Positions 129 to 13,780 of a stretch of 53,844 nt of DNA are shown here, in pieces (within the stretch, counting starts at the first letter, position 1; each line of letters opens with the position of its first letter). The DNA lies in assembly GCA_026388545.1 (NCBI GenBank), contig JAPLJS010000047.1:1-53844 (forward strand), in the 5' to 3' direction. The position numbers were made by a program, and so were the translations under genes. The notes below the pieces were generated by a model, which was not told where the DNA came from, did not search any database, and was given only the letters and a program-made list of their open reading frames with translations. Source of the DNA: Deltaproteobacteria bacterium. GTDB taxonomy: Bacteria > Desulfobacterota > Syntrophia > Syntrophales > UBA2185.

Positions 129-443
129 TTACGTATAGGTAGGTGTAATTTCGTCAAGGCTCAATTCAACAGATTATCAACTCAAAAGTACGCATGAACC
201 GGATGAACCTGTTTTTCTTGACTTTCGATTTGCTTTATCACAGAATCCGCAGATAAAAATGTCATCAATCAATTCCCTTACCGAACAGCAACTATCGGAT
301 GTTAATGAGGCACAGGCGTGCGGTAGCAAAAAACAATTAACGATAGCAGAATAAACATCAAGATAAAAAATGGAAATCATTTCCTCAGTGTTAAAATATT
401 ACCAATTATGAGATATATAAGAAAAATTTTAAGGAGGCAGATT
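129..443. other. Intergenic stretch, no convincing gene
   Basis: This 315-base stretch lies between the probable intron end and the first lipoprotein-like gene. A plus-strand frame is open without an early start codon from 139 to 354 (about 71 codons, first ATG near 262), which could be the 3' remnant of a gene cut by the insertion. I do not recognise its translation. A Shine-Dalgarno sequence AAGGAGG at 431-437 serves the gene starting at 444. Confidence 0.3.
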
Positions 444-1354
444 ATGAAGTCGCAGTATAAGGGAGTAATCTCATTTATCGTAGGTGTAATTTTTCTGTGT
501 GCCGGGATCGGCTTTTGTCAGGAGAGCAGCGAAGGCAAGGTAGGCATGACAGATTGGACGAAGATCATCGAATCGAAGGTGACCGACAAGGTGGGCGACA
601 AGGGATTGGTTAACTACGAGGAAGGTTATATTGAAGCCGTAGGTACGGGCGCACCGCCTGAGCAATATTACGGAAAACCCCAGGCGCGCCCCATGGCTTT
701 GAGGGCGGCCCAGGTCGACGCGTATAGAAATCTGTTGGAAACCGTTCAAGGAGTACAGATTGATTCTAAAACAACGGTAAAGGACTTTGTGGTGGAGAGT
801 GATGTAATCAACGCCGCGGTTTCAGGCCTTGTCAAAGGTGCTGCTATGGTGAACAAGGCATACCTGTCTGACGGTACGGTGGAGGTGACGGTAAGAATGC
901 CTCTCTCCGGTCTCGCCAAAGCGGTCATTCCCAAGGCCATTGCCGATGATAAGAAGACTGACACAAAAGAACATAAGCCGGTACCCTTCTCCAAAAAAAG
1001 GCGCCTGCTGATGAGGTATATACGGGATTAGTAGTGGACGCACGAGGCCTCCAGGGACGACCCGCCATATCCCCAAAGATTTTTGACGAGAACGGCGCCG
1101 AGGTCTATGGTACTCTGCTTGTAAAAAAGGAATACGCCATGCAGCAGGGAATCTGCGGTTACGCCCGCGATCTGACAGCATCCCAAAGTAACCCCAGAGT
1201 CACCAACAACCCATTGACCGTAAAGGCCATCACTGCGGAAGGTGCGAGTATGACGGAATTCAAGATCAGCAATGAAGACGCCAAGCAGATCAGGGCAGCG
1301 AAGGACAACTTGACCTTTTTGCAGAAATGCCGCGTCATGATCGTTTTAGACTGA
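444..1354 (+). pseudogene. LPP20-like exported protein, frameshifted
   Basis: This is a paralogue of the intact gene at 3539-4426, split in two frames. The start at 444 follows AAGGAGG by 6 bases and gives an N-terminal signal segment (VGVIFLCAGIGFCQ). Frame one carries the conserved ARPMALRAAQVDAYRNLLE block and the VTVRMPLSG strand, then ends at 1031. The second frame picks up at about 1001 with YTGLVVDARGLQ and runs to QKCRVMIVLD at 1354, matching the paralogue's C-terminus. The break falls at a run of seven A (993-999) in the linker between the domains. It could be a real one-base indel, an assembly error or -1 slippage. LPP20-type proteins are envelope (lipo)proteins; the exact role is unknown. 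Confidence 0.7.
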
Positions 1355-3479: not shown

Positions 3480-3512
3480 GACCGCAGTTACCAGGATGTG
3501 GCAACTGCGGTC
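3480..3512 (-). terminator. Hairpin terminator of the LPP20-like gene
   Basis: A perfect 10-bp stem, GACCGCAGTT (3480-3489) and AACTGCGGTC (3503-3512), lies 26 bases downstream of the stop at 3539. It is followed on the minus strand by a short CTTTTC tract, so termination is likely but the U-tract is weak. Confidence 0.65.
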
Positions 3513-3538: not shown

Positions 3539-4426
3539 TCAATCCAGAACCACCATAACCCGGCATTTTTTCAAAAAGATCAGGTTTTCTGAAGTACCTC
3601 TGATCTTTTCCGCATCGGCATTACTGATAACAATGTCGGACTTGCCGGGGCCTTCGGTTTTAATTCCCTTAACACTGACCGGATTGTTTGTCACCCTTGG
3701 ATTACTCTGGGCTGCCGTAAGATCTCTCGCATAACCGCTCATGCCCTGTTGAACGGCATACTCACGATCCACATTCATGGATCCATAGACTTCCTTTCCA
3801 TTTTCATCAAGAACCTTGGGGGACATGGCAGGTCGTGCTTGAAGACCTCGGGCATCAATTACCATTCCCGTGTAAACGACCCCTGCTGCCGGAACTGGTG
3901 CTGCCGGAGCTGCCGGTGGTATGACGGGAGGCGCCATCTCACGTCTCCTGTCGAGGGCCTTGGGTATAATGACTTGTGAAAAATTACCCGACAAGGGCAT
4001 TCTGACCGTCACTTCCACAGTTCCATCAGACATGTACTCCTGATTTATTACCTGAGCACCTTTAACAAGGCCTTCGACCTGTGCATTAATGACATCACTC
4101 TCGACCGTAAAATCCTTGACGACCGTCGTGGAATCAACACGCACTCCTTTTGTTATCTCGAGTAAATTGCGATAGGCATCAATCTTGCCTGCTCTCAAAG
4201 CCATGGGACGGGCATTGGGTTTCCCTATATACCTCTCGGGAGGGGCGCCGATCCCCAGAGCTTCAATATAGCCTTCCGACCAGTTAATCTTCCCTTTATC
4301 ACCCATCTTTTCGATGATCTGTGTCCATTCCGACCCGCTCACTTTTTCCTGACAAAAACCGACTCCCGAATAAAGGAGCACCATGCCGGCGATGATCCCT
4401 ACTGCAACAATTATTTTCGACCTCAT
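3539..4426 (-). CDS. LPP20-like exported protein
   Basis: This 295-residue protein has an N-terminal signal segment (about residues 3-25, ending GVGFCQ). Its first domain has the RPMALRAGKIDAYRNLLE and VTVRMPLSG features of LPP20/FlgP-like envelope proteins. An Ala/Pro-rich linker near residues 165-182 leads to a second domain of about 110 residues (MVIDARGLQARPAMSP to KKCRVMVVLD). The Cys of GFCQ is not in a clear lipobox, so lipidation is doubtful. AAGGAGG precedes the ATG. It lies 144 bp downstream of the beta-helix lipoprotein gene and may be the last gene of the exported-protein cluster. Its role is unknown; family placement is by motif resemblance. The frameshifted paralogue is at 444-1354. 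Confidence 0.7.
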   Translation of the reverse strand: MRSKIIVAVGIIAGMVLLYSGVGFCQEKVSGSEWTQIIEKMGDKGKINWSEGYIEALGIGAPPERYIGKPNARPMALRAGKIDAYRNLLEITKGVRVDSTTVVKDFTVESDVINAQVEGLVKGAQVINQEYMSDGTVEVTVRMPLSGNFSQVIIPKALDRRREMAPPVIPPAAPAAPVPAAGVVYTGMVIDARGLQARPAMSPKVLDENGKEVYGSMNVDREYAVQQGMSGYARDLTAAQSNPRVTNNPVSVKGIKTEGPGKSDIVISNADAEKIRGTSENLIFLKKCRVMVVLD

Positions 4427-4570
4427 ATTATCCTCCTTGCTAATGGTTTTGGAAATGCATCCAAAAAACTAAATAATCATCCTTGTTTCAAATTGATTGA
4501 CGTACCTTTCATTTAAAAATACGAACGTAAAATAGCAGAATACCTCAAAGGTTTCAATGATGAAATCATG

Positions 4571-7333
4571 TCATTTTTTTTCAGCAAATGCTTTACCTTC
4601 CGGAGCCTGCAACCACGGTGTAACGTTGATGCTATCGTCGTTGGTCTTAAAAATATTCCTCTCGTCGGGTGCTGCCTTCCCCCACCAGTTGTTTGTAGCA
4701 TCAACTCGTATGGTGGAGAAGGCCTGAATATCTACAATATCATTTTTTATGAAATTATTATAGTTGATCTTCGGTCTGGACATCCCTCTGACTATGATTC
4801 CACCCTCTCCAAAATTTTCTGTGATTGTGCAGTATGATATTTTGGGCGCCGCATCGTTTCGGCAAAACACACCCGTATGTGCATTTTTAGCAATGTGGCA
4901 ATAGGAAATTTCCGGTGTGCCGTAATGGATGTCAAAGGCCGTATCGGCATATTTAACGACACAATATGCAAAGGCGCTATTTACCTTGGTGGATTTCGTA
5001 AATCGAACTGCATTGGTGTAAAACCCGGGAGATGGTGAAGTCCCAGAAGCCGTAAATATAATTGGAAGACCTTCCGTGCCTTTAGCCATGATGCCGCCAT
5101 CTTCCGTAATCATGGATGTATTCTGGTCGTACTGGATTATCACTCCGGGTTCAATATACAGGGTCGCTCCACCATCAATGATAACATCCCTTGTAATGCG
5201 GTAAGGACTGTTAGAAAGGACAAGAAATGCATCCGACTTGATGGCCCCCCCACTCAGCACATGGGAAAGTATGGGAAGTTCAAGTGGCTTCCCATCGGGA
5301 TAAGGGGCATTTAATACCGACTTGATGTTGACTTTCCCTTGTATTCCCGCAAGAATTTCAAGACCTTTGGAAGAACCCCACCAGTTGTTCAGGGCATTGA
5401 CCGCCTCCCCTGTTATATTACTCACGATATCAAAGGGTTTGTTGTCATTGATATTGTTCTGTGTGATTGCGGCCTGACTGTTCTTTACGGTAATTCCCGG
5501 CCCCTGGTTATGTGTGATCCTGTTATAAAGTATTACCGGTGCAGATGACTGAATGAGAATGCCTTCCTTCGCGTTATTCTGGATATTGTTTTCCGTTAGT
5601 TTCGGCTGGGCTCCATCCGCAATTGAAACCGCGGCTTCTCTGTTTTTATGGATTGTATTTTTCACCACCCGTGGCTTTGAAAATGCACCTAAAATCATTA
5701 TTGCAGTACCGTTTTCAAGGAGTTCACATGCCTCAACACGCGGTGAAGACGCCTGGCAAAGGATTCCCGTTACCGCATTCCTGATACGGCAGAACTTGAC
5801 CAGATTTTCCTTTTCCTTAACACTATTAAAAATTAACCCTACCCAGGATTTTACACCTTCCGCGGCGTCAAGAACTACAATGTGCTCTTCATCCCCCTGG
5901 GCATTAAGACGTCCTTCAATCACAAGGGCGCCACCCTTTGACCGGATCTCCGTGCCCGGTTCAATGGTGAGAATGGCCTTATCTTTAACTACAACTGTAT
6001 TTTCGATTATATAGGGACTGGCGCCCGCATACCAGGTAGTATCAGATTCAATGATCCCTGATACAGGTGTTGGCCCAGGCGCCACAGGCATCCCGGTTAT
6101 TGCATCCGCTCTTTCACTTTCGTTACCGGCCCAGTCTATGGCAGTGACCTGATAGTAATACTTCTGTGTATTGACCAGTTTATCATCACGATACTCATTC
6201 AATTCCGTCTTCGCAATTTGCTGAAAACCGCTGAGCGGAGTGTTGCTGCGGTAGACCCGGTATCCTGCCAGATCTAAGGCTGATGATTTATCCCAGTTCA
6301 GAAGAACCACGGCGCTTCGTCCTACTGTTTTGACGGTTTTAATTTTTTCAGGCGGTATGGTATCGAGGGTTACCGTCCCCACGGCGTCAACCCACTCAGC
6401 CGTATTCCCGGCTTCGTCCCTGAGATAACCGGTAATCATTGCATTGGTGATATTGTCACCGGGGATGACCTTATAGACACCCAGATATCCTCCCGGTTCA
6501 ACTTCCTGCATGTCTATATTCTTTTTGAACTCACCAATATTGAAGTATGCCTGCATCTTGGGCGCACCCTGAATGACCACTTTAATTTCATCACCTGCCT
6601 TTTTCGGCTGATTTTTCGTATCCTGGGTAAGCAGAGTGATTACAGGTGGCCGGAGGGCTTCGGCTATGGCCGGAACGGGGATTGTCTTGACCATGTCCCG
6701 GAACAGATCGTCACATGCCCTCAGGAGCTGAATATCTCTCACGTTCATGGCAGTGGCAACTATCGTCGCAATAAGTCCGATGGGATTTGTAGAAATACCA
6801 CCCTCCTGGATACGGGTTACATGCTTGCCGCTCCAGAGAAAATTTCCCGTCTTTGTATCATACATCTTAATCTCAGCCCCCACCGAGACGGAAGAATAAA
6901 CAACGGCAAATAACTTGTCAAAATCTGAAATACTGCCATAGATCACAGCGTCCACATCAAGTATCCTGCCCAATTCCTTTGGGGAAATCTTATTGATGGC
7001 TTCAGCATCGGTTAGCCCGGCCTTCCTTAAAATATTATCCACGCTATAGAGTTTCATGCTTTTATAGGGCAACGAACTGAAATGATTGTAAAATCCCCTG
7101 CGAACCTCATCGGATCCCAACTGGCTTTTCGCCTGATTAAAAAAAGGCAGAACCGCCACGGTATTTGGCTTGTGTTTATCCATGAAGGGATCAATGTTGT
7201 AAGTCCCTTTAAATAAGTCCCGGATTTGAGGAGTAATGGCGGTTCCTTTTGTGGCAATCACACAGCTTTGGATCATAAAAAGTAAAGGTAGCAATACAAT
7301 GATTAATATGGATCTTTGCAATCCCTTTTTCAT
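4571..7333 (-). CDS. GNA1162/DUF799-like lipoprotein with FN3 and beta-helix domains
   Basis: This is a large lipoprotein of about 920 residues with a lipobox at FMIQSC. Residues about 40-230 resemble the GNA1162 (DUF799) family: VAVLPFFNQ, VDAVIYGSI, and MYDTKTGNFLWSG. A short beta-rich segment follows, then one FN3 domain (about 335-425, GYRVYRSN and YYYQVTAIDWAGNE). Two right-handed beta-helix units complete it, each opening with an IEPG turn and closing with NNWWG. The ATG at 7333 is chosen over a TTG 15 bases upstream because GGGGAGGCC precedes it correctly. GNA1162-like lipoproteins often co-occur with CsgG-like lipoproteins, as here. The beta-helix suggests binding of a polymer or surface carbohydrate, which is inference. 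It is probably in the outer membrane, facing an unknown side. Confidence 0.8.
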   Translation of the reverse strand: MKKGLQRSILIIVLLPLLFMIQSCVIATKGTAITPQIRDLFKGTYNIDPFMDKHKPNTVAVLPFFNQAKSQLGSDEVRRGFYNHFSSLPYKSMKLYSVDNILRKAGLTDAEAINKISPKELGRILDVDAVIYGSISDFDKLFAVVYSSVSVGAEIKMYDTKTGNFLWSGKHVTRIQEGGISTNPIGLIATIVATAMNVRDIQLLRACDDLFRDMVKTIPVPAIAEALRPPVITLLTQDTKNQPKKAGDEIKVVIQGAPKMQAYFNIGEFKKNIDMQEVEPGGYLGVYKVIPGDNITNAMITGYLRDEAGNTAEWVDAVGTVTLDTIPPEKIKTVKTVGRSAVVLLNWDKSSALDLAGYRVYRSNTPLSGFQQIAKTELNEYRDDKLVNTQKYYYQVTAIDWAGNESERADAITGMPVAPGPTPVSGIIESDTTWYAGASPYIIENTVVVKDKAILTIEPGTEIRSKGGALVIEGRLNAQGDEEHIVVLDAAEGVKSWVGLIFNSVKEKENLVKFCRIRNAVTGILCQASSPRVEACELLENGTAIMILGAFSKPRVVKNTIHKNREAAVSIADGAQPKLTENNIQNNAKEGILIQSSAPVILYNRITHNQGPGITVKNSQAAITQNNINDNKPFDIVSNITGEAVNALNNWWGSSKGLEILAGIQGKVNIKSVLNAPYPDGKPLELPILSHVLSGGAIKSDAFLVLSNSPYRITRDVIIDGGATLYIEPGVIIQYDQNTSMITEDGGIMAKGTEGLPIIFTASGTSPSPGFYTNAVRFTKSTKVNSAFAYCVVKYADTAFDIHYGTPEISYCHIAKNAHTGVFCRNDAAPKISYCTITENFGEGGIIVRGMSRPKINYNNFIKNDIVDIQAFSTIRVDATNNWWGKAAPDERNIFKTNDDSINVTPWLQAPEGKAFAEKK

Positions 7334-7490
7334 GAGAGGCCTCCCCAAATGGCGCTTTCTGTAATCAACGGCGACAACCCCAACGGGTCACTTTCACCAC
7401 TTTTCTGACCAGAATTTAAAATCCTGCCCTCGCACAATCACCATGCGGGGCGGAGTGAACCATATCCGAATCTTGCTGATTCAGAAATAG

Positions 7491-7835
7491 TTAAGGTTTC
7501 TCACCTGGCGGCATTGAAGCTCCTTGAACAGTCTCAACCAGGAATTCTTGATGACTTTTTGGTGATATTTTTATGAATTTATAGGGTATCGCTATAGGTT
7601 CCCGTCCGGTGGCCAGTGTCCGATAGGTCAGGACCCATACAGCCCCCGTTGTCGTATCAACAAGATACGCCTTGTCATCACTGCCGGGAACCACCTGATA
7701 TTTCATAATGTCAGCAGCAAAGGATGAAGTACAAAGAAAAAGAAACGCAATAACAAGAAAGATCAATTTCTGCCCACCAGTGATTGTATCTGACCTCGTT
7801 TTTTGCCATAAACCGGTAAATTGCCAAAAGGCCAT
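7491..7835 (-). CDS. Small exported protein of unknown function
   Basis: This 114-residue protein has a hydrophobic segment LIFLVIAFLFLCTSSFAAD ending in a good signal peptidase site. The mature part is about 65 residues and contains KAYLVDTTTGAVWVLTYRTL, a short beta-hairpin-like motif of the kind seen in proteins that report stored values. I do not recognise a family. The ATG at 7835 is chosen because GAGGAGG lies 8 bases upstream; a longer frame begins at 7925 without such support. The gene sits between two large exported-protein genes of the same strand, so it is probably co-transcribed with them. Confidence 0.65.
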   Translation of the reverse strand: MAFWQFTGLWQKTRSDTITGGQKLIFLVIAFLFLCTSSFAADIMKYQVVPGSDDKAYLVDTTTGAVWVLTYRTLATGREPIAIPYKFIKISPKSHQEFLVETVQGASMPPGEKP

Positions 7836-7930
7836 TGTAAATACCTCCTCATCACATTCAAAAGGGCAGATGCCTTTTCCTCTGCAACATGGGCGGTTTC
7901 CCGCAGTGAAACAGTCTTTATGCATTCTGC

Positions 7931-10219
7931 CTATTTTCCGCTAATCGTTACCTCCTGGCTTGGTTCACTCTCAAGACCATCCTTGTCGACGGAAGTCACA
8001 GCATATGCCTTGCTCTTTCCCTTTACCAGACCAGTCTCACTGAAATTTGTTATTTTTACCGTATCAATCTTTTCAAGACCAAAAAAACGCTTCTCATACA
8101 CAGTATAATGGGAAATATCACGTTCATTCCCCGCTTTCCAGGTAAGCTCAACCTTCCCTTGACGGACTTCAGCGGTTAATCCTTCAGGACTCTTAGGCTT
8201 GGGCTTTGTCTGAACAGTGATTGTATTTGAAAAATCACTGAGTAATTCATCTTTGTCCTCTGCCTGGATCCTATACCTGTATGCATACCCATCTTTCAAT
8301 TCTTTATCTTTATAACTGGTCGTACCCTGAACCTTTGTGATCCGGGAAAAGTCTTCTTCGGAACCTGTAGCGCGATAGATATGATATACGGCGATATCTT
8401 TTTCAGGATTTGGAAGCCATGTAAGAGGCACTTCCTTAACCTTTAACTCATCTCCCTTCACTCCTGTGGGTTTTGTTGGTCGTGGCTTCGTCGTAGCGAA
8501 GGCTGTCTCGGACAGATCACTTTCCACATCCACCTTGTTGAAGGCTGTTATCGTGTAGTAATATGTATTATTATCATCGAGTTTTTCAAAACCCCCTCCG
8601 CCATGTGAAAAGCTATTTATCGTCCGGCCGTCAATCCGCTTCAGTAACGAATATTTACCCACCTTTTCCTTAGACCAGTAGAGATTATAGCCTTCGACTT
8701 CTTCATATGGACTTACCGTCCATGTCACTTCAACTTTTTTGACAAGCCCATTTTGTGCCTTCAATCCTTGTGGAGTTGGCGGCTTACCCTTTGTAACGGC
8801 CGACACCGCCACAGATAGTGACGTTTCTGTATCCGGGTTCTCAATAGCAGTTATCCGATAAAAATATCGGGTCTTATCTCCCAGCCCTTCTTTATCTGTA
8901 TAATATAGTTTTTCCCCGCTCCCTGCGTCAGATGCATCAACCTTTTTTATTTTAGTAAAATTTCCACTTTCTAATGTACTCCGGAAAATATAATACCCCT
9001 TAATAAATAGTGAATCAATGGGACTCCAAGACAATTTAATCTCCCGTATCATATCCCCCTGTGCGAAAAGGGAACCGACAACGGGTATTGTGGTGCTTTT
9101 AATACAGGTAGAAAAATCACTCTCCAGGTTTTTCTCATTATAGGCAGTCACTTTATAATAATAGTCCTCCCCATCTGCAAGCCCCCTATCCACATAGGTT
9201 ACCTTAAACAATTTATCAAGGGTTGTCGTGGAATCTACACCAATACCGATATCTTTACCCAAGATATCGGCAACCTCTTTAAACGGCCCCTGCGGTGTTT
9301 TAGCTCTATAGAGTTTATATCCCTTTAGTTTTAAAGGGTCTTCGCTGGTAATCGGGCCGGGCGACCAGGTCACTTCGATACTTTTTACATGACCCTCCGT
9401 TCTTAAAATAACGGGAGGATTAGGAGTCAATGCTGTTTCGGCAGGAATAATGGCTGAAAAATCACTCTGAATACCTTTGCTACTGAAAGCCCTTATTTTA
9501 TAATAGTAGATGGTATTCCTGTCCAGGTCTTGATCAAGATGTTCCGGTCGATTTACCTGCGCAATTTTGACAAACGGTCCGGATTCAGCATTGCCGCGAA
9601 ATATTTCATATCCGGATGCGCTCACCCCCGGCGGATCTTCCCAGCCTAGATAAACCCGCTTATTGCCCGATCGTTTTTGCACATTAACAGGACATGACGT
9701 TTCTTTCTTTTCCACATCCTTCTGTTTCAAGGCATAACTTGATATGGCCGTAGTGATCGAAGCACTAAGCTTCCTTATTTCACTCATAAGGCCGGCATCA
9801 CCAAGGGATCTTGCCTGGGCATCAAGGATAACCCTTTTTTGCTCAACATTGATGACTTTACAATTAATTACAATTATCGATCCATTTTTCCGCACGTTAC
9901 CGACAACGATTACAGTAAGGCCCAATCTTGAACCAATACTGACGACGTTCTCCAGATTATCATCCTGCTGAAGGTCATTGAGACTCAAAAAAGCCTCAAG
10001 CTCCTTACGATCAAGCAACGCAAAAGAAGGCTCAGAACTCAAGGTATTTATCAACATATTGGTGACCGTTGTATTGTAACCCGATGCCTCCAGATTTATT
10101 GTGCCGAAATTAAAAACGGATAACTTGACTTGAGGGGTTGCTTCAGTAAAAGCTACAGCGGGATAGACGAGTATCATCAGAAGAAATACACATAAATAAT
10201 GGACGACCCTTTTCTCCAT
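7931..10219 (-). CDS. Exported protein: CsgG/FlgO-like domain plus six FN3 domains
   Basis: This 762-residue protein has a signal peptide ending VAFTEA. Residues about 30-165 form an alpha/beta domain (LSVFNFG, LLDRKELEAFL, GNVRKNGSIIVI) resembling the CsgG/FlgO type that helps assemble outer-membrane complexes. Six fibronectin type III repeats follow, roughly 175-265, 268-380, 382-480, 482-580, 582-675 and 676-760. Each has a GY.IYR-like strand and a YYY.ITA-like strand. FN3 strings usually serve as extended binding or spacer modules. The ATG has GGAGGG upstream. It lies 51 bp after the CsgG/TPR lipoprotein gene on the same strand. No enzymatic motif is visible. Confidence 0.75.
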   Translation of the reverse strand: MEKRVVHYLCVFLLMILVYPAVAFTEATPQVKLSVFNFGTINLEASGYNTTVTNMLINTLSSEPSFALLDRKELEAFLSLNDLQQDDNLENVVSIGSRLGLTVIVVGNVRKNGSIIVINCKVINVEQKRVILDAQARSLGDAGLMSEIRKLSASITTAISSYALKQKDVEKKETSCPVNVQKRSGNKRVYLGWEDPPGVSASGYEIFRGNAESGPFVKIAQVNRPEHLDQDLDRNTIYYYKIRAFSSKGIQSDFSAIIPAETALTPNPPVILRTEGHVKSIEVTWSPGPITSEDPLKLKGYKLYRAKTPQGPFKEVADILGKDIGIGVDSTTTLDKLFKVTYVDRGLADGEDYYYKVTAYNEKNLESDFSTCIKSTTIPVVGSLFAQGDMIREIKLSWSPIDSLFIKGYYIFRSTLESGNFTKIKKVDASDAGSGEKLYYTDKEGLGDKTRYFYRITAIENPDTETSLSVAVSAVTKGKPPTPQGLKAQNGLVKKVEVTWTVSPYEEVEGYNLYWSKEKVGKYSLLKRIDGRTINSFSHGGGGFEKLDDNNTYYYTITAFNKVDVESDLSETAFATTKPRPTKPTGVKGDELKVKEVPLTWLPNPEKDIAVYHIYRATGSEEDFSRITKVQGTTSYKDKELKDGYAYRYRIQAEDKDELLSDFSNTITVQTKPKPKSPEGLTAEVRQGKVELTWKAGNERDISHYTVYEKRFFGLEKIDTVKITNFSETGLVKGKSKAYAVTSVDKDGLESEPSQEVTISGK

Positions 10220-10270
10220 TTCTTCCCTCCAAATACAAGTTCCGGCTACATTCCGGAGTTTTCTTAAAAC

Positions 10271-12259
10271 TTACCTGTTTTGTATCAATTTATCAATCCA
10301 TTCCAATGAGTTCTGGGAAATCGGGGTAGAAATGCCCTTTGATTTCTCATCATAAATGGCATCCGTATATCTTTCAATGGCAAGCTCAGGATTGCGTCGT
10401 TTCAATCTTTGTTGCTCACCCTGATTGAAATATTCAACCTCAAGGCTCTGAAATTGTTTGAGTACGCTTCGTCCCACTTCAGAAATCTTTTCATTGGTTA
10501 ATTCATCAAGGGCCTCTGATTCGGTTGGAAGTTCCAAGGGATCATGGGGTATATTGGCAGCCGGCACAGCATCCTGATACTTATCCTCCCTGATCATTCT
10601 CCCCGGTATAGTATTGGCATAAATGTTCTCCCCTGTTGCCGTATCCACGAGTTTATAGGATACTTCTATCAATGCGTTGATTTTGGCAGTTCCCTGTCGG
10701 TAAGAGATAAATTGATAGATTCTTTTCTTCACCGTCATGGGAGGCATAGACTTCCTATCCTCCTCGGATGGTCTAGGGTGCATCATTCGCCACAGCTGAA
10801 ACTCCGGATTGGGCTCATCCTGCTCGTCAACGAGGACTTTCACCTGACTGGTGCTCGGGTGGTCGGTGAATTTGGAGGTGAATTGGAGAACATCACCCAT
10901 GATAAACGTGTCAATTCCTCTCATTTTGGCCGTCTGAGCTGATTTTACATCGACAATACCGGTTTGCCCAAGCTGCATCTCCCTTAAGATAGACTGCAAG
11001 TTTTCACGTTCGATAATTCGAAGGTCACCACTGGCATTTCTATGAAGATACGTTATCAGCTTGTTGGCAACAATTTTCCCCGCATCTTTGTTATTGCTGG
11101 GGCTGCCGAAATCGAACACTGCAATGGATTTTCTGATTCGTTTGTTGATTTGATCCCTGAGTTCCAATACTTTCTGGAACAACTCCGGATACTGCGGGTT
11201 TAATGCTTCTACTTTCTGGTACCAGATCAATGCGTTACCCCACATTTCACGCTCACGATATTTATCAGCCCTATCCATCACCTTTGTAGAGAACTTGCTG
11301 ATAAATTCCTTGTAACCGGCATCTCCCTGCACTGAGGGTTTGTAAGACTTTACAATTTCTGCCTTTTTTAAAGCCGTATAAAATTTTCCCTGATCCAAAA
11401 GCTTACCGGCGTCGTCAAAGTATAGTTGTCCGACCTTCGCCTTGAGATTATCCAGTTTTTTCAAGAGCGGCTGGTTTTCCGGCTGATATTCAGCTGCTTT
11501 TTCATACATGAAAATAGCCTTCCCCCAGTTTTTCGCCTGTTCCGCCTTTTCAGCCACGGTCACGAAGTAGCCCGCATTATCCTTGGACTTTGCATCCTGG
11601 TAGAGCTTTGCAACATCATAATAACCGGGATTAATATCCATAGCGGTCTTAAATGCCTGGGCCGCCATTTTCCAATCCTCCTGTTTACTCAACGTGAGAC
11701 CCTGCTGATAAAACAACTTGGCGCCTTCCTGCTCGATTTTGGCAAGCTTCGCACCTGTATCCTCGTAATTGAGGAACATCTTGTTGACCTGTTTCAATTT
11801 CGCCAGTGCGGCCGTCCAGTCCTCTTTTTGCATATCCACATCGGCCTGGCTGTACAGCGATTTCACTGTTATATTAAGGTTATTGATCTTTTCCCTGAGA
11901 CTATCATGGAAGGATTTGATATCTTTATTGTTAGGATCAAAATTATATGCAAGGCCACTCTCTTTTGAAATCTGCTCAAGAGCCGGCACATTCTGCTCCG
12001 GGGCTTTAGCCAATGCTGATTTGGCTTTTTCGTAGTGTATTTTGGCTGCCTTCTGCTTGGCTTCAAGCAGGGCATCTTTATACTCCTGTTTATCGGGGCT
12101 CTCCTTCAATGCAGTCTCAAAATAGCCAATTGCCTCCTCCCATCGATTTACGTTGCTCAATTCCTGACCGGTTTTGTAACTCTCACTTACCGCACAACCC
12201 GCCAGAAAAATCAGAATAAGCAAACCGATTAGAGACATCCGATATTTTTGTATCTTCAT
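10271..12259 (-). CDS. CsgG-family lipoprotein with TPR repeats
   Basis: This 662-residue lipoprotein has a clear lipobox (IFLAGC at about residues 17-22). Residues about 25-370 are helical TPR-like repeats (NRWEEAIGYFETALKESP, EDWKMAAQAFKTAMDINPGY, NWGKAIFMYEKAAEYQPEN and others). Residues about 375-600 form a CsgG domain: SIAVFDFGS, RIIERENLQSILREMQLG, and GIDTFIMGDVLQ. CsgG itself is the curli secretion pore, but many family members are not pores. The TPR block probably binds partner proteins in the periplasm. The ATG has GGGAGG upstream. It is 36 bp downstream of the FlgT-like gene, indicating an operon. No curlin genes are in the window. Confidence 0.85.
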   Translation of the reverse strand: MKIQKYRMSLIGLLILIFLAGCAVSESYKTGQELSNVNRWEEAIGYFETALKESPDKQEYKDALLEAKQKAAKIHYEKAKSALAKAPEQNVPALEQISKESGLAYNFDPNNKDIKSFHDSLREKINNLNITVKSLYSQADVDMQKEDWTAALAKLKQVNKMFLNYEDTGAKLAKIEQEGAKLFYQQGLTLSKQEDWKMAAQAFKTAMDINPGYYDVAKLYQDAKSKDNAGYFVTVAEKAEQAKNWGKAIFMYEKAAEYQPENQPLLKKLDNLKAKVGQLYFDDAGKLLDQGKFYTALKKAEIVKSYKPSVQGDAGYKEFISKFSTKVMDRADKYREREMWGNALIWYQKVEALNPQYPELFQKVLELRDQINKRIRKSIAVFDFGSPSNNKDAGKIVANKLITYLHRNASGDLRIIERENLQSILREMQLGQTGIVDVKSAQTAKMRGIDTFIMGDVLQFTSKFTDHPSTSQVKVLVDEQDEPNPEFQLWRMMHPRPSEEDRKSMPPMTVKKRIYQFISYRQGTAKINALIEVSYKLVDTATGENIYANTIPGRMIREDKYQDAVPAANIPHDPLELPTESEALDELTNEKISEVGRSVLKQFQSLEVEYFNQGEQQRLKRRNPELAIERYTDAIYDEKSKGISTPISQNSLEWIDKLIQNR

Positions 12260-12295
12260 TACGGCCTCCCTCGCGTCATAATTTTAAAAATATAA

Positions 12296-13414
12296 TCAAT
12301 GCAGTACCTTAGCTTCAATCTTGTTTTGTGTTATTTCTAATATTTTTATTTTTCTGCCATTCATTGTGATTGCAGCGACATCATCGGCCAAGCTCTGCGT
12401 ATTCCCCTTGATCTCAACATCCAATTCAACCTCCCCGTTAGTATGAGAATAAGACCGCTGATGCATTTGTCTAAATCCCTTTACTTCCGCGGCTAAAAGT
12501 TCTTTGAAACGTGACAGCTCTTTAAAAGTATTTAAACCTGAAACCTCCAGCTTGACTGTCGCTACATTTGTCAATTCCGATGACCACCGCTCCAGTATCT
12601 CTTCTTTCATTCCTTTAGCCAGATCTTTAGCTGCTTCTTCGGCAGTAACGTTTATGTCACCTTTGCGTGTCTTGCTATCCGTTGCAATAACTTCTCCCGT
12701 ATCACCATTTATAACCTTTCCCGACACAGTAACTTCGTTGGAAGACACCTCTACATCGCCCATCTTAAAAGATTTTGTTATTATTTCCACTTTACCGAGA
12801 ATAACGACCTCTGCTCCATAGCGGCGAGCGATATTCGAAACTTCTTTTCGATCATTGCTAAGAGCCTGGAAACGCCCTTGTCCCCTGTTTTTTTTGACAG
12901 AATCGGCATCTACAAGCTTAAATCCATGAGAGAGGAAATACTTGGCCATAGCTGCTTCCGCTATGGCATCTTTCCGGGCTTTCTCGCTGAATATCATCAT
13001 CAAACGGGGCTTAGACTTCCTGGTCATGATAAGGTCTATCGCCGTCATGCGATCTTTCAATCTGCCGACAACGACATCGGCTTCAATTGTCACCTTGTAG
13101 TTATTCCCTGCTCTCCCCTCTGAAATTATTTTATAGGAATTGATAAATCCCTTGGATTCTGACAGTATCTGATCCATTTTTACCTGAAAATTCTCAACTT
13201 CTGAAAAGCTGGTTATCATGACGCCCACTTTCTCTTCCACAGCATTACGCTGAGCATTATCAATTGCTTTATCTCGGGCAATATCAATTGCATCCTCATG
13301 GATGGTAGCCATACCCACTACCCGGATTTTATCCTGGGCATAGGCATATGCCGTAAAGAGTGAAAATATAAGACTAAGACCAGCTACCGTAATAAATAAA
13401 ACCAATTTTTTCAT
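12296..13414 (-). CDS. FlgT N-terminal-like exported protein
   Basis: This 372-residue exported protein has a signal peptide (LIFSLFTAYAYAQD). Residues about 25-115 (VVGMATIHEDAIDIARDKAI and YKVTIEADVVVGRLKD) resemble the N-terminal domain of flagellar assembly protein FlgT, a fold related to LPP20. The middle (MMIFSEKARKD, RRYGAEVVILGKVE, NGDTGEVIATDSK) resembles the FlgT middle/CsgG-like domain. The C-terminal part (VATVKLEVSGLNTFKELSRF) is another beta-alpha module. The ATG at 13414 is chosen because the upstream GTG overlaps the AGGTGGGTG ribosome binding site. It is the first gene of the exported-protein cluster, and its promoter probably lies in 13415-13500. No flagellar genes are nearby, so flagellar function is doubtful. 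Confidence 0.75.
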   Translation of the reverse strand: MKKLVLFITVAGLSLIFSLFTAYAYAQDKIRVVGMATIHEDAIDIARDKAIDNAQRNAVEEKVGVMITSFSEVENFQVKMDQILSESKGFINSYKIISEGRAGNNYKVTIEADVVVGRLKDRMTAIDLIMTRKSKPRLMMIFSEKARKDAIAEAAMAKYFLSHGFKLVDADSVKKNRGQGRFQALSNDRKEVSNIARRYGAEVVILGKVEIITKSFKMGDVEVSSNEVTVSGKVINGDTGEVIATDSKTRKGDINVTAEEAAKDLAKGMKEEILERWSSELTNVATVKLEVSGLNTFKELSRFKELLAAEVKGFRQMHQRSYSHTNGEVELDVEIKGNTQSLADDVAAITMNGRKIKILEITQNKIEAKVLH

Positions 13415-13780
13415 AGAATCACCCACCTACTTTATTACCTTCTTGATGATCAATGTGAGTCTACTATCCCTATAACAGAAAACCTCTAAAATTTGTATAA
13501 CATTCTAATGTTTTTGAACCGCCACTCGGCAAAATGATTAACTAACTCAACTCTGCGGGCCTTTCATAACTTATTACAAGGATGTCAAATATGTTTCAAG
13601 AGTAAAAGATTTTTACGAATACAGAGATTCACCATTTAGTCCGATCTTTACCCATGTTACAGATAAGGTAATAAATTTATGAAAATATACTGAAATCACT
13701 TTAGGGTGTCAAGATTATTTCCGGTAACCATTAAAGTAATAATAACGGTTTATCGCAACTTCGACACACCATATAACATC
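13415..13780. other. Non-coding stretch
   Basis: This AT-rich stretch lies between the start of the exported-protein cluster and the 3' end of the broken rfbD. I see no credible gene. It must hold the promoter of the minus-strand cluster, but no clear -35/-10 pair could be fixed by eye. Confidence 0.4.

Follow-up and report, generated by a model that had tools for sequence, protein, structure and literature searches.

FlgP and FlgT are known from flagellar motors, where they are accessory components. Together with FlgO they belong to the H-ring and outer-membrane disc of Vibrio, and FlgP makes up the basal disk of Campylobacter. Ring oligomerisation in the FlgP (LPP20/SHS2) family correlates with a hairpin insert, and FlgT has the fold of the same family (PMC12222027). 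Homology searches are reported to have found none of the accessory proteins in delta-proteobacteria (PMC5758724). Other described systems with parts resembling those treated here are the CsgG curli secretion channel, the PelC collar of the Pel exporter and the GNA1162 lipoprotein of Neisseria. Searches of the literature for the combination of genes at this locus returned nothing relevant and no description of the set.

The window, that is, the whole stretch of 53,844 nucleotides that was analysed, is contig JAPLJS010000047.1, positions 1-53,844. A preliminary description had reported six co-oriented genes for exported proteins at 3539-13414, and all six open reading frames were confirmed on the minus strand, the first beginning with ATG at 13414 (Table 1). 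Judged from the sequence, they look like one transcription unit bounded by a conserved promoter and a conserved terminator. The promoter lies in an island, TAATCTTGACAC...TTTCAGTATATT, that is conserved in six genomes with diverged flanks. The terminator hairpin, GACCGCAGTT...CTGCGGTCTTTT (3512-3480), exceeds every other terminator-like stem of the region in length and occurs at the same place in loci L037, L038 and L039 (four genomes in all), and not in the more distant L040. Separate transcription of each gene, named in the preliminary description as grounds for abandoning its view, is not what this arrangement suggests. Gaps of about 150 bases ahead of the GNA1162-beta-helix gene and the FlgP-type gene could hold internal promoters.

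Table 1. Coordinates of the operon, its signals and neighbouring features, and of PilT-type ATPase genes beside the triad (FlgT-type, TPR-CsgG and CsgG-FN3 genes) in related loci.
Feature	Locus	Position	Strand	Remarks
Sigma70-type promoter, TTGACA-17-TATATT	Window	13684..13712	-	Upstream of FlgT-type gene; 11/12 consensus
FlgT-type periplasmic protein	Window	12296..13414	-	Signal peptide; FlgP/SHS2-like N domain with hairpin; TolB-N-like M domain; further C domain
TPR-CsgG lipoprotein	Window	10271..12259	-	Lipobox Cys22; TPR solenoid about 24-370; CsgG-like domain 371-600
CsgG-FN3 protein	Window	7931..10219	-	Signal peptide; CsgG/TolB-N-like domain (residues 28-175), then FN3 string
Small exported protein, family-less	Window	7491..7925	-	Slot homologues in many relatives
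GNA1162-FN3-beta-helix lipoprotein	Window	4571..7348	-	Lipobox Cys29; GNA1162 58-202; FN3-like about 325-425; right-handed beta-helix 430-920
FlgP-type (LPP20 superfamily) exported protein	Window	3539..4426	-	Ring-hairpin insert and conserved C-terminal domain
Intrinsic terminator	Window	3480..3512	-	14-bp stem, T tail; directly after FlgP-type gene
Second FlgP/LPP20-type gene	Window	408..1354	+	Inverted across mutL relative to operon copy; two ORFs in different frames
PilT-type ATPase gene	L061	12956-14227		
PilT-type ATPase gene	L062	5289-6563		
PilT-type ATPase gene	L111	6195-7355		
PilT-type ATPase gene	L113	6226-7383		
PilT-type ATPase gene	L112	6858-9309		

Ring-forming ancestry is supported, by sequence or by fold, for two of the encoded proteins. 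The product of the last gene had been called LPP20-like; its Pfam match to LPP20 was weak (0.17), yet a profile of its orthologues matched FlgP chains of known structure with E values from 6e-20 to 2e-10, among them Campylobacter FlgP 9hmf (E 6e-20) and 8z5n, the FlgP of the LPHT ring (2.2e-12). Both alignments ran ungapped over the ring hairpin, and the protein has the SHS2 core with a hairpin insert between the helix and the second strand that marks the ring-forming subset of FlgP proteins (PMC12222027). It differs from flagellar FlgP in having no clear lipobox. The product of the first gene matched FlgT_N in Pfam (2.8e-10), and NCBIfam added a similarity to LipL46 and otherwise little across the six genes. 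As in FlgT, a signal peptide precedes an SHS2-like N domain and then a TolB-N-like M domain; the N-domain profile matched FlgP 9hmf at 1.7e-8 and the FlgP-type protein of the operon itself at 3.6e-8. In a structure model with a mean pLDDT of 70.7 and a poorly modelled hairpin, the best PDB match by Foldseek was Vibrio FlgT 3w1e (E 1.2e-11, Z-score 11.8), aligned mainly over residues 28-281, followed by chain 0 of the LPHT ring (2.8e-11, Z-score 12.6). The locus has in common with the Vibrio and Campylobacter structures a FlgP-type protein with the ring hairpin, and with Vibrio a FlgT-type protein whose first two domains correspond. It differs from them in the added FN3 and beta-helix arms and in occurring also in genomes without a flagellum, and the role of FlgO in the Vibrio disc would be taken, if at all, by the TPR-CsgG and CsgG-FN3 proteins. 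That operon members share ancient folds (SHS2, TolB-N) with proteins of non-ring roles counts against a ring reading.

The families represented here had been connected with secretion pores as well as with rings. A CsgG-like secretion pore is not supported. The TPR-CsgG protein was confirmed as such by Pfam (TPR 5e-13; CsgG, PF03783, 3.3e-10, 40.1 bits against a cut-off of 20.8), with the CsgG homology confined to the globular core (profile positions 31-104 of 210) and an E of only 0.22 for this domain against PDB sequences. A long hydrophilic insert with a conserved N-P and W separates the core strands. A crude score gave no run of alternating hydrophobic residues at the second membrane hairpin (0.76 vs 2.54) and was ambiguous for the first. 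AlphaFold, run on seven sequences, modelled the TPR solenoid well; the CsgG domain failed, at pLDDT <50, so no conclusion about a pore was drawn from the model. What the protein shares with the curli channel is the core of the CsgG fold within a lipoprotein, whereas the TPR fusion, the insert, the lack of a clear second hairpin and the absence of curlin repeats from the genome set it apart. The next protein does carry the FN3 string previously recognized (3.1e-22), and also an N-terminal CsgG/TolB-N-like domain that had been missed; Pfam gave a weak CsgG match (0.016), and profile-to-profile comparison matched the domain of the TPR-CsgG protein at 9e-8 and E. coli CsgG at 4e-5.

An alternative is an export function, in which a CsgG/PelC-fold lipoprotein and its partners would ring the space below an outer-membrane exporter of polysaccharide or protein, as PelC does for PelB, while the TPR and FN3/beta-helix parts handle the chain. 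In the FlgT-type model, PelC dodecamers, PelBC and CsgG are among the matches to the M domain, the gene rfbD adjoins the operon in many relatives, and in two loci (L067, 1882-8697; L068, 2208-8678) the FlgT-type and TPR-CsgG genes flank a gene for an exported PKD-repeat protein of about 2200 residues. The PelC likeness, however, is that of a common, widespread fold, which TolB and GNA1162 also matched; beside the operon there was no sign of a PelB-like gene or of another conserved gene for a beta-barrel porin, a synthase or a substrate, and the TPR-CsgG protein again offers no evident second membrane hairpin. We regard such an exporter collar as unlikely. In L067 an RHS-repeat gene lies downstream of the PKD-repeat gene.

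The lipoprotein encoded by the fifth gene matched GNA1162 in Pfam (1.3e-18, 67.6 bits against a cut-off of 25.9), the GNA1162 structure 4hrv (1.5e-10) and the Pfam beta-helix (1.3e-23), in agreement with its earlier assignment. It has the N-terminal domain and the lipobox of Neisseria GNA1162 and differs from it in the fusion to FN3-like and right-handed beta-helix domains and in its partner genes. Its lipobox Cys29 is invariant in 28/28 orthologues, and so is Cys22 of the TPR-CsgG protein in 38/38. Under the E. coli lipoprotein sorting rule, absence of Asp at position +2 fits an outer-membrane destination; the residue found here is V, L, A or T and never Asp, which is consistent with sorting of the GNA1162-beta-helix lipoprotein to the outer membrane. 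The small exported protein had no match in Pfam or NCBIfam; its homologues, where present, occupy the equivalent slot and are absent from other relatives. Lipoproteins of the TolB-N/LpoB type could also reach cell-wall synthases and regulate peptidoglycan synthesis, using FN3 domains and, as LpoA does, TPR domains as spacers. LpoB models weakly matched GNA1162- and CsgG-type members of these loci and TolB was among the structure matches, but the LpoB score of the window protein was far under the cut-off, no role of this kind is known for FlgP- or FlgT-type proteins, and a set so patchy within one order would be odd for a growth function; this makes the cell-wall role decidedly improbable.

The association of the genes goes beyond chance, as about 30 genera preserve the gene order and co-occurrence holds even without linkage. 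An order-level search covered 149 genomes, with neighbours fetched around the matches. The TPR-CsgG gene was found in 48 of these, 45 of them with close orthologues, and the named relatives with the locus are Syntrophaceae and other Deltaproteobacteria/Desulfobacterota metagenome-assembled genomes. The triad kept its order and strand in every order-level locus whose contig covered both sides, and among the close orthologues no complete genomes were seen that had one triad gene but were missing the rest. Other Desulfobacterota families also have the triad, at about 30% identity (L108, L110, L111, L113); more distant copies (L115-L120) comprise the TPR-CsgG gene only. The GNA1162-FN3-beta-helix gene and the FlgP-type gene form a further unit, which in genomes without the triad often stands alone between rfbD or truA and mutL (L123, L126 and L127; on one side in L128 and L131), the same position that the operon occupies in this genome; in some relatives only the GNA1162-type gene is at this site.

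The GNA1162-type gene was present in 66 of the 149 genomes and in 43 of the 45 with the triad, both exceptions having contig ends near the cluster (odds ratio 76, Fisher P 4e-18, kinship ignored). Where the triad is located elsewhere, the GNA1162-type and FlgP-type genes were still present (8/8 genomes). Since 23 of the 66 genomes keep the GNA1162-beta-helix unit without the triad, the six genes are not an obligate set, and the triad appears to depend on the pair and not the reverse. Six separate exported proteins might be neighbours simply because this part of the chromosome rarely rearranges: the pgk-truA-rfbD and mutL flanks are conserved too, and the pair stays at rfbD-mutL without the triad. 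Such an accident of position is very unlikely, given that the order of the triad is preserved in several unrelated settings and at about 30% identity, that co-occurrence survives unlinking and that one conserved promoter and terminator enclose the genes. The earlier suggestion of an uncharacterised outer-membrane assembly has thus withstood both objections raised against it in advance, failure to co-occur in other genomes and separate transcription; lipoprotein signals are invariant in two further members, and the pore part is not supported.

The preliminary description had found no flagellar genes nearby, which is correct for the locus; the genome does encode a flagellum, with FlgH, FlhA and FlgI on contig C19, away from it. 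Together with the FlgP and FlgT homology, this would allow the operon to provide an H-ring or basal disc to a flagellum encoded elsewhere. Fifteen carriers (thirteen genomes of good quality plus G007 and G008), however, have none of FlgH, FlgI and FlhA, whereas three flagellated controls have all three. Presence of the triad showed no association with FlgH, carriers and non-carriers being alike (17/30 vs 25/62, P 0.18). Across seven flagellated genomes no FlgP-type gene shared a contig with the flagellar genes or, in the closed genome among them, lay close to these, the nearest being about 660 kb from FlgH. On these three observations a general link of the operon to flagella was rejected; a flagellar accessory as its general function is largely refuted, and we give it hardly any credence, although in flagellated carriers alone the flagellum may use the operon. 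Because the FlgP-type gene occurs in carriers that lack the three markers and is never beside flagellar genes, its product is better called FlgP-like than flagellar FlgP.

As relatives of flagellar ring proteins are kept in many bacteria without flagella, the operon probably builds an undescribed envelope ring or scaffold. We put at about even the chance that its products assemble, independently of flagella, into a ring or disc scaffold that is anchored in the outer membrane, consists of two units and carries binding arms. The first unit would be the GNA1162-FN3-beta-helix lipoprotein with the FlgP-type ring former, and the second the triad, kept almost only with the first. The FlgP- and FlgT-type proteins may oligomerise through their hairpin inserts into rings beneath the outer membrane, where the two lipoproteins would anchor them; the TPR solenoid could connect the layers, and the FN3 and beta-helix arms may bind peptidoglycan or surface polysaccharide. 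Ring and complex formation, the ligands of the arms, a client and any pore are what we infer beyond the genes themselves. The missing clear lipobox of the FlgP-type protein and the genomes that keep the first unit without the second speak against this reading. More tentatively, and at somewhat less than even chance, concentric FlgP/FlgT-type rings with such arms may lie under the outer membrane of flagellum-less bacteria and serve another filament, for example the type IV pilus, or form a stand-alone surface organelle. If so, flagellar discs would have been recruited from a wider family of ring assemblies, or would be held in common with it. An operon that is conserved, independent of flagella and equipped with both FlgP and FlgT types offers a way to test how flagellar outer-membrane discs originated, and it suggests that a large group of mostly uncultured bacteria has an envelope structure not yet seen.

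The type IV pilus as a possible client is weakly suggested by PilT-type ATPase genes that adjoin the triad in three contexts unrelated to one another (L061/L062, L111/L113 and L112), a post hoc hint and a lead only. Presence and absence were uninformative in this respect, with PilM in 144 of the 149 genomes, and no client machine is encoded beside the operon in the window, a further point against the scaffold reading. TsaP was considered as a precedent for a FlgT domain, was not confirmed by search and was set aside. In L108 (1226-19900) the module is extended by an SLH lipoprotein, a probable transglutaminase (identified through its L110 homologue), FecR, DUF4384 and a CHASE2-adenylate cyclase, and a variant in L081 adds GNA1162, CsgG, PEGA and FecR; these additions fit an envelope structure linked to cell-wall or surface-layer anchoring.

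Several smaller features accompany these loci. The broken second FlgP/LPP20-type gene of the window either is a pseudogene or owes its break to an error of assembly. The FlgT-type gene of the closed genome G042 (L049, 11148-12316) spans two overlapping reading frames and may be broken. A recurrent extra gene, whose product looks by eye like a hydrolase of the metallo-beta-lactamase fold, immediately precedes the GNA1162-beta-helix gene in several relatives, namely in L040 (10687-11454), L049 (5278-6090) and L043 (13859-14551). The genome that contains the window also has, on a short contig (G000 contig C83, 1-3738; L074), a second FlgT-type gene with two CsgG-type genes after it.
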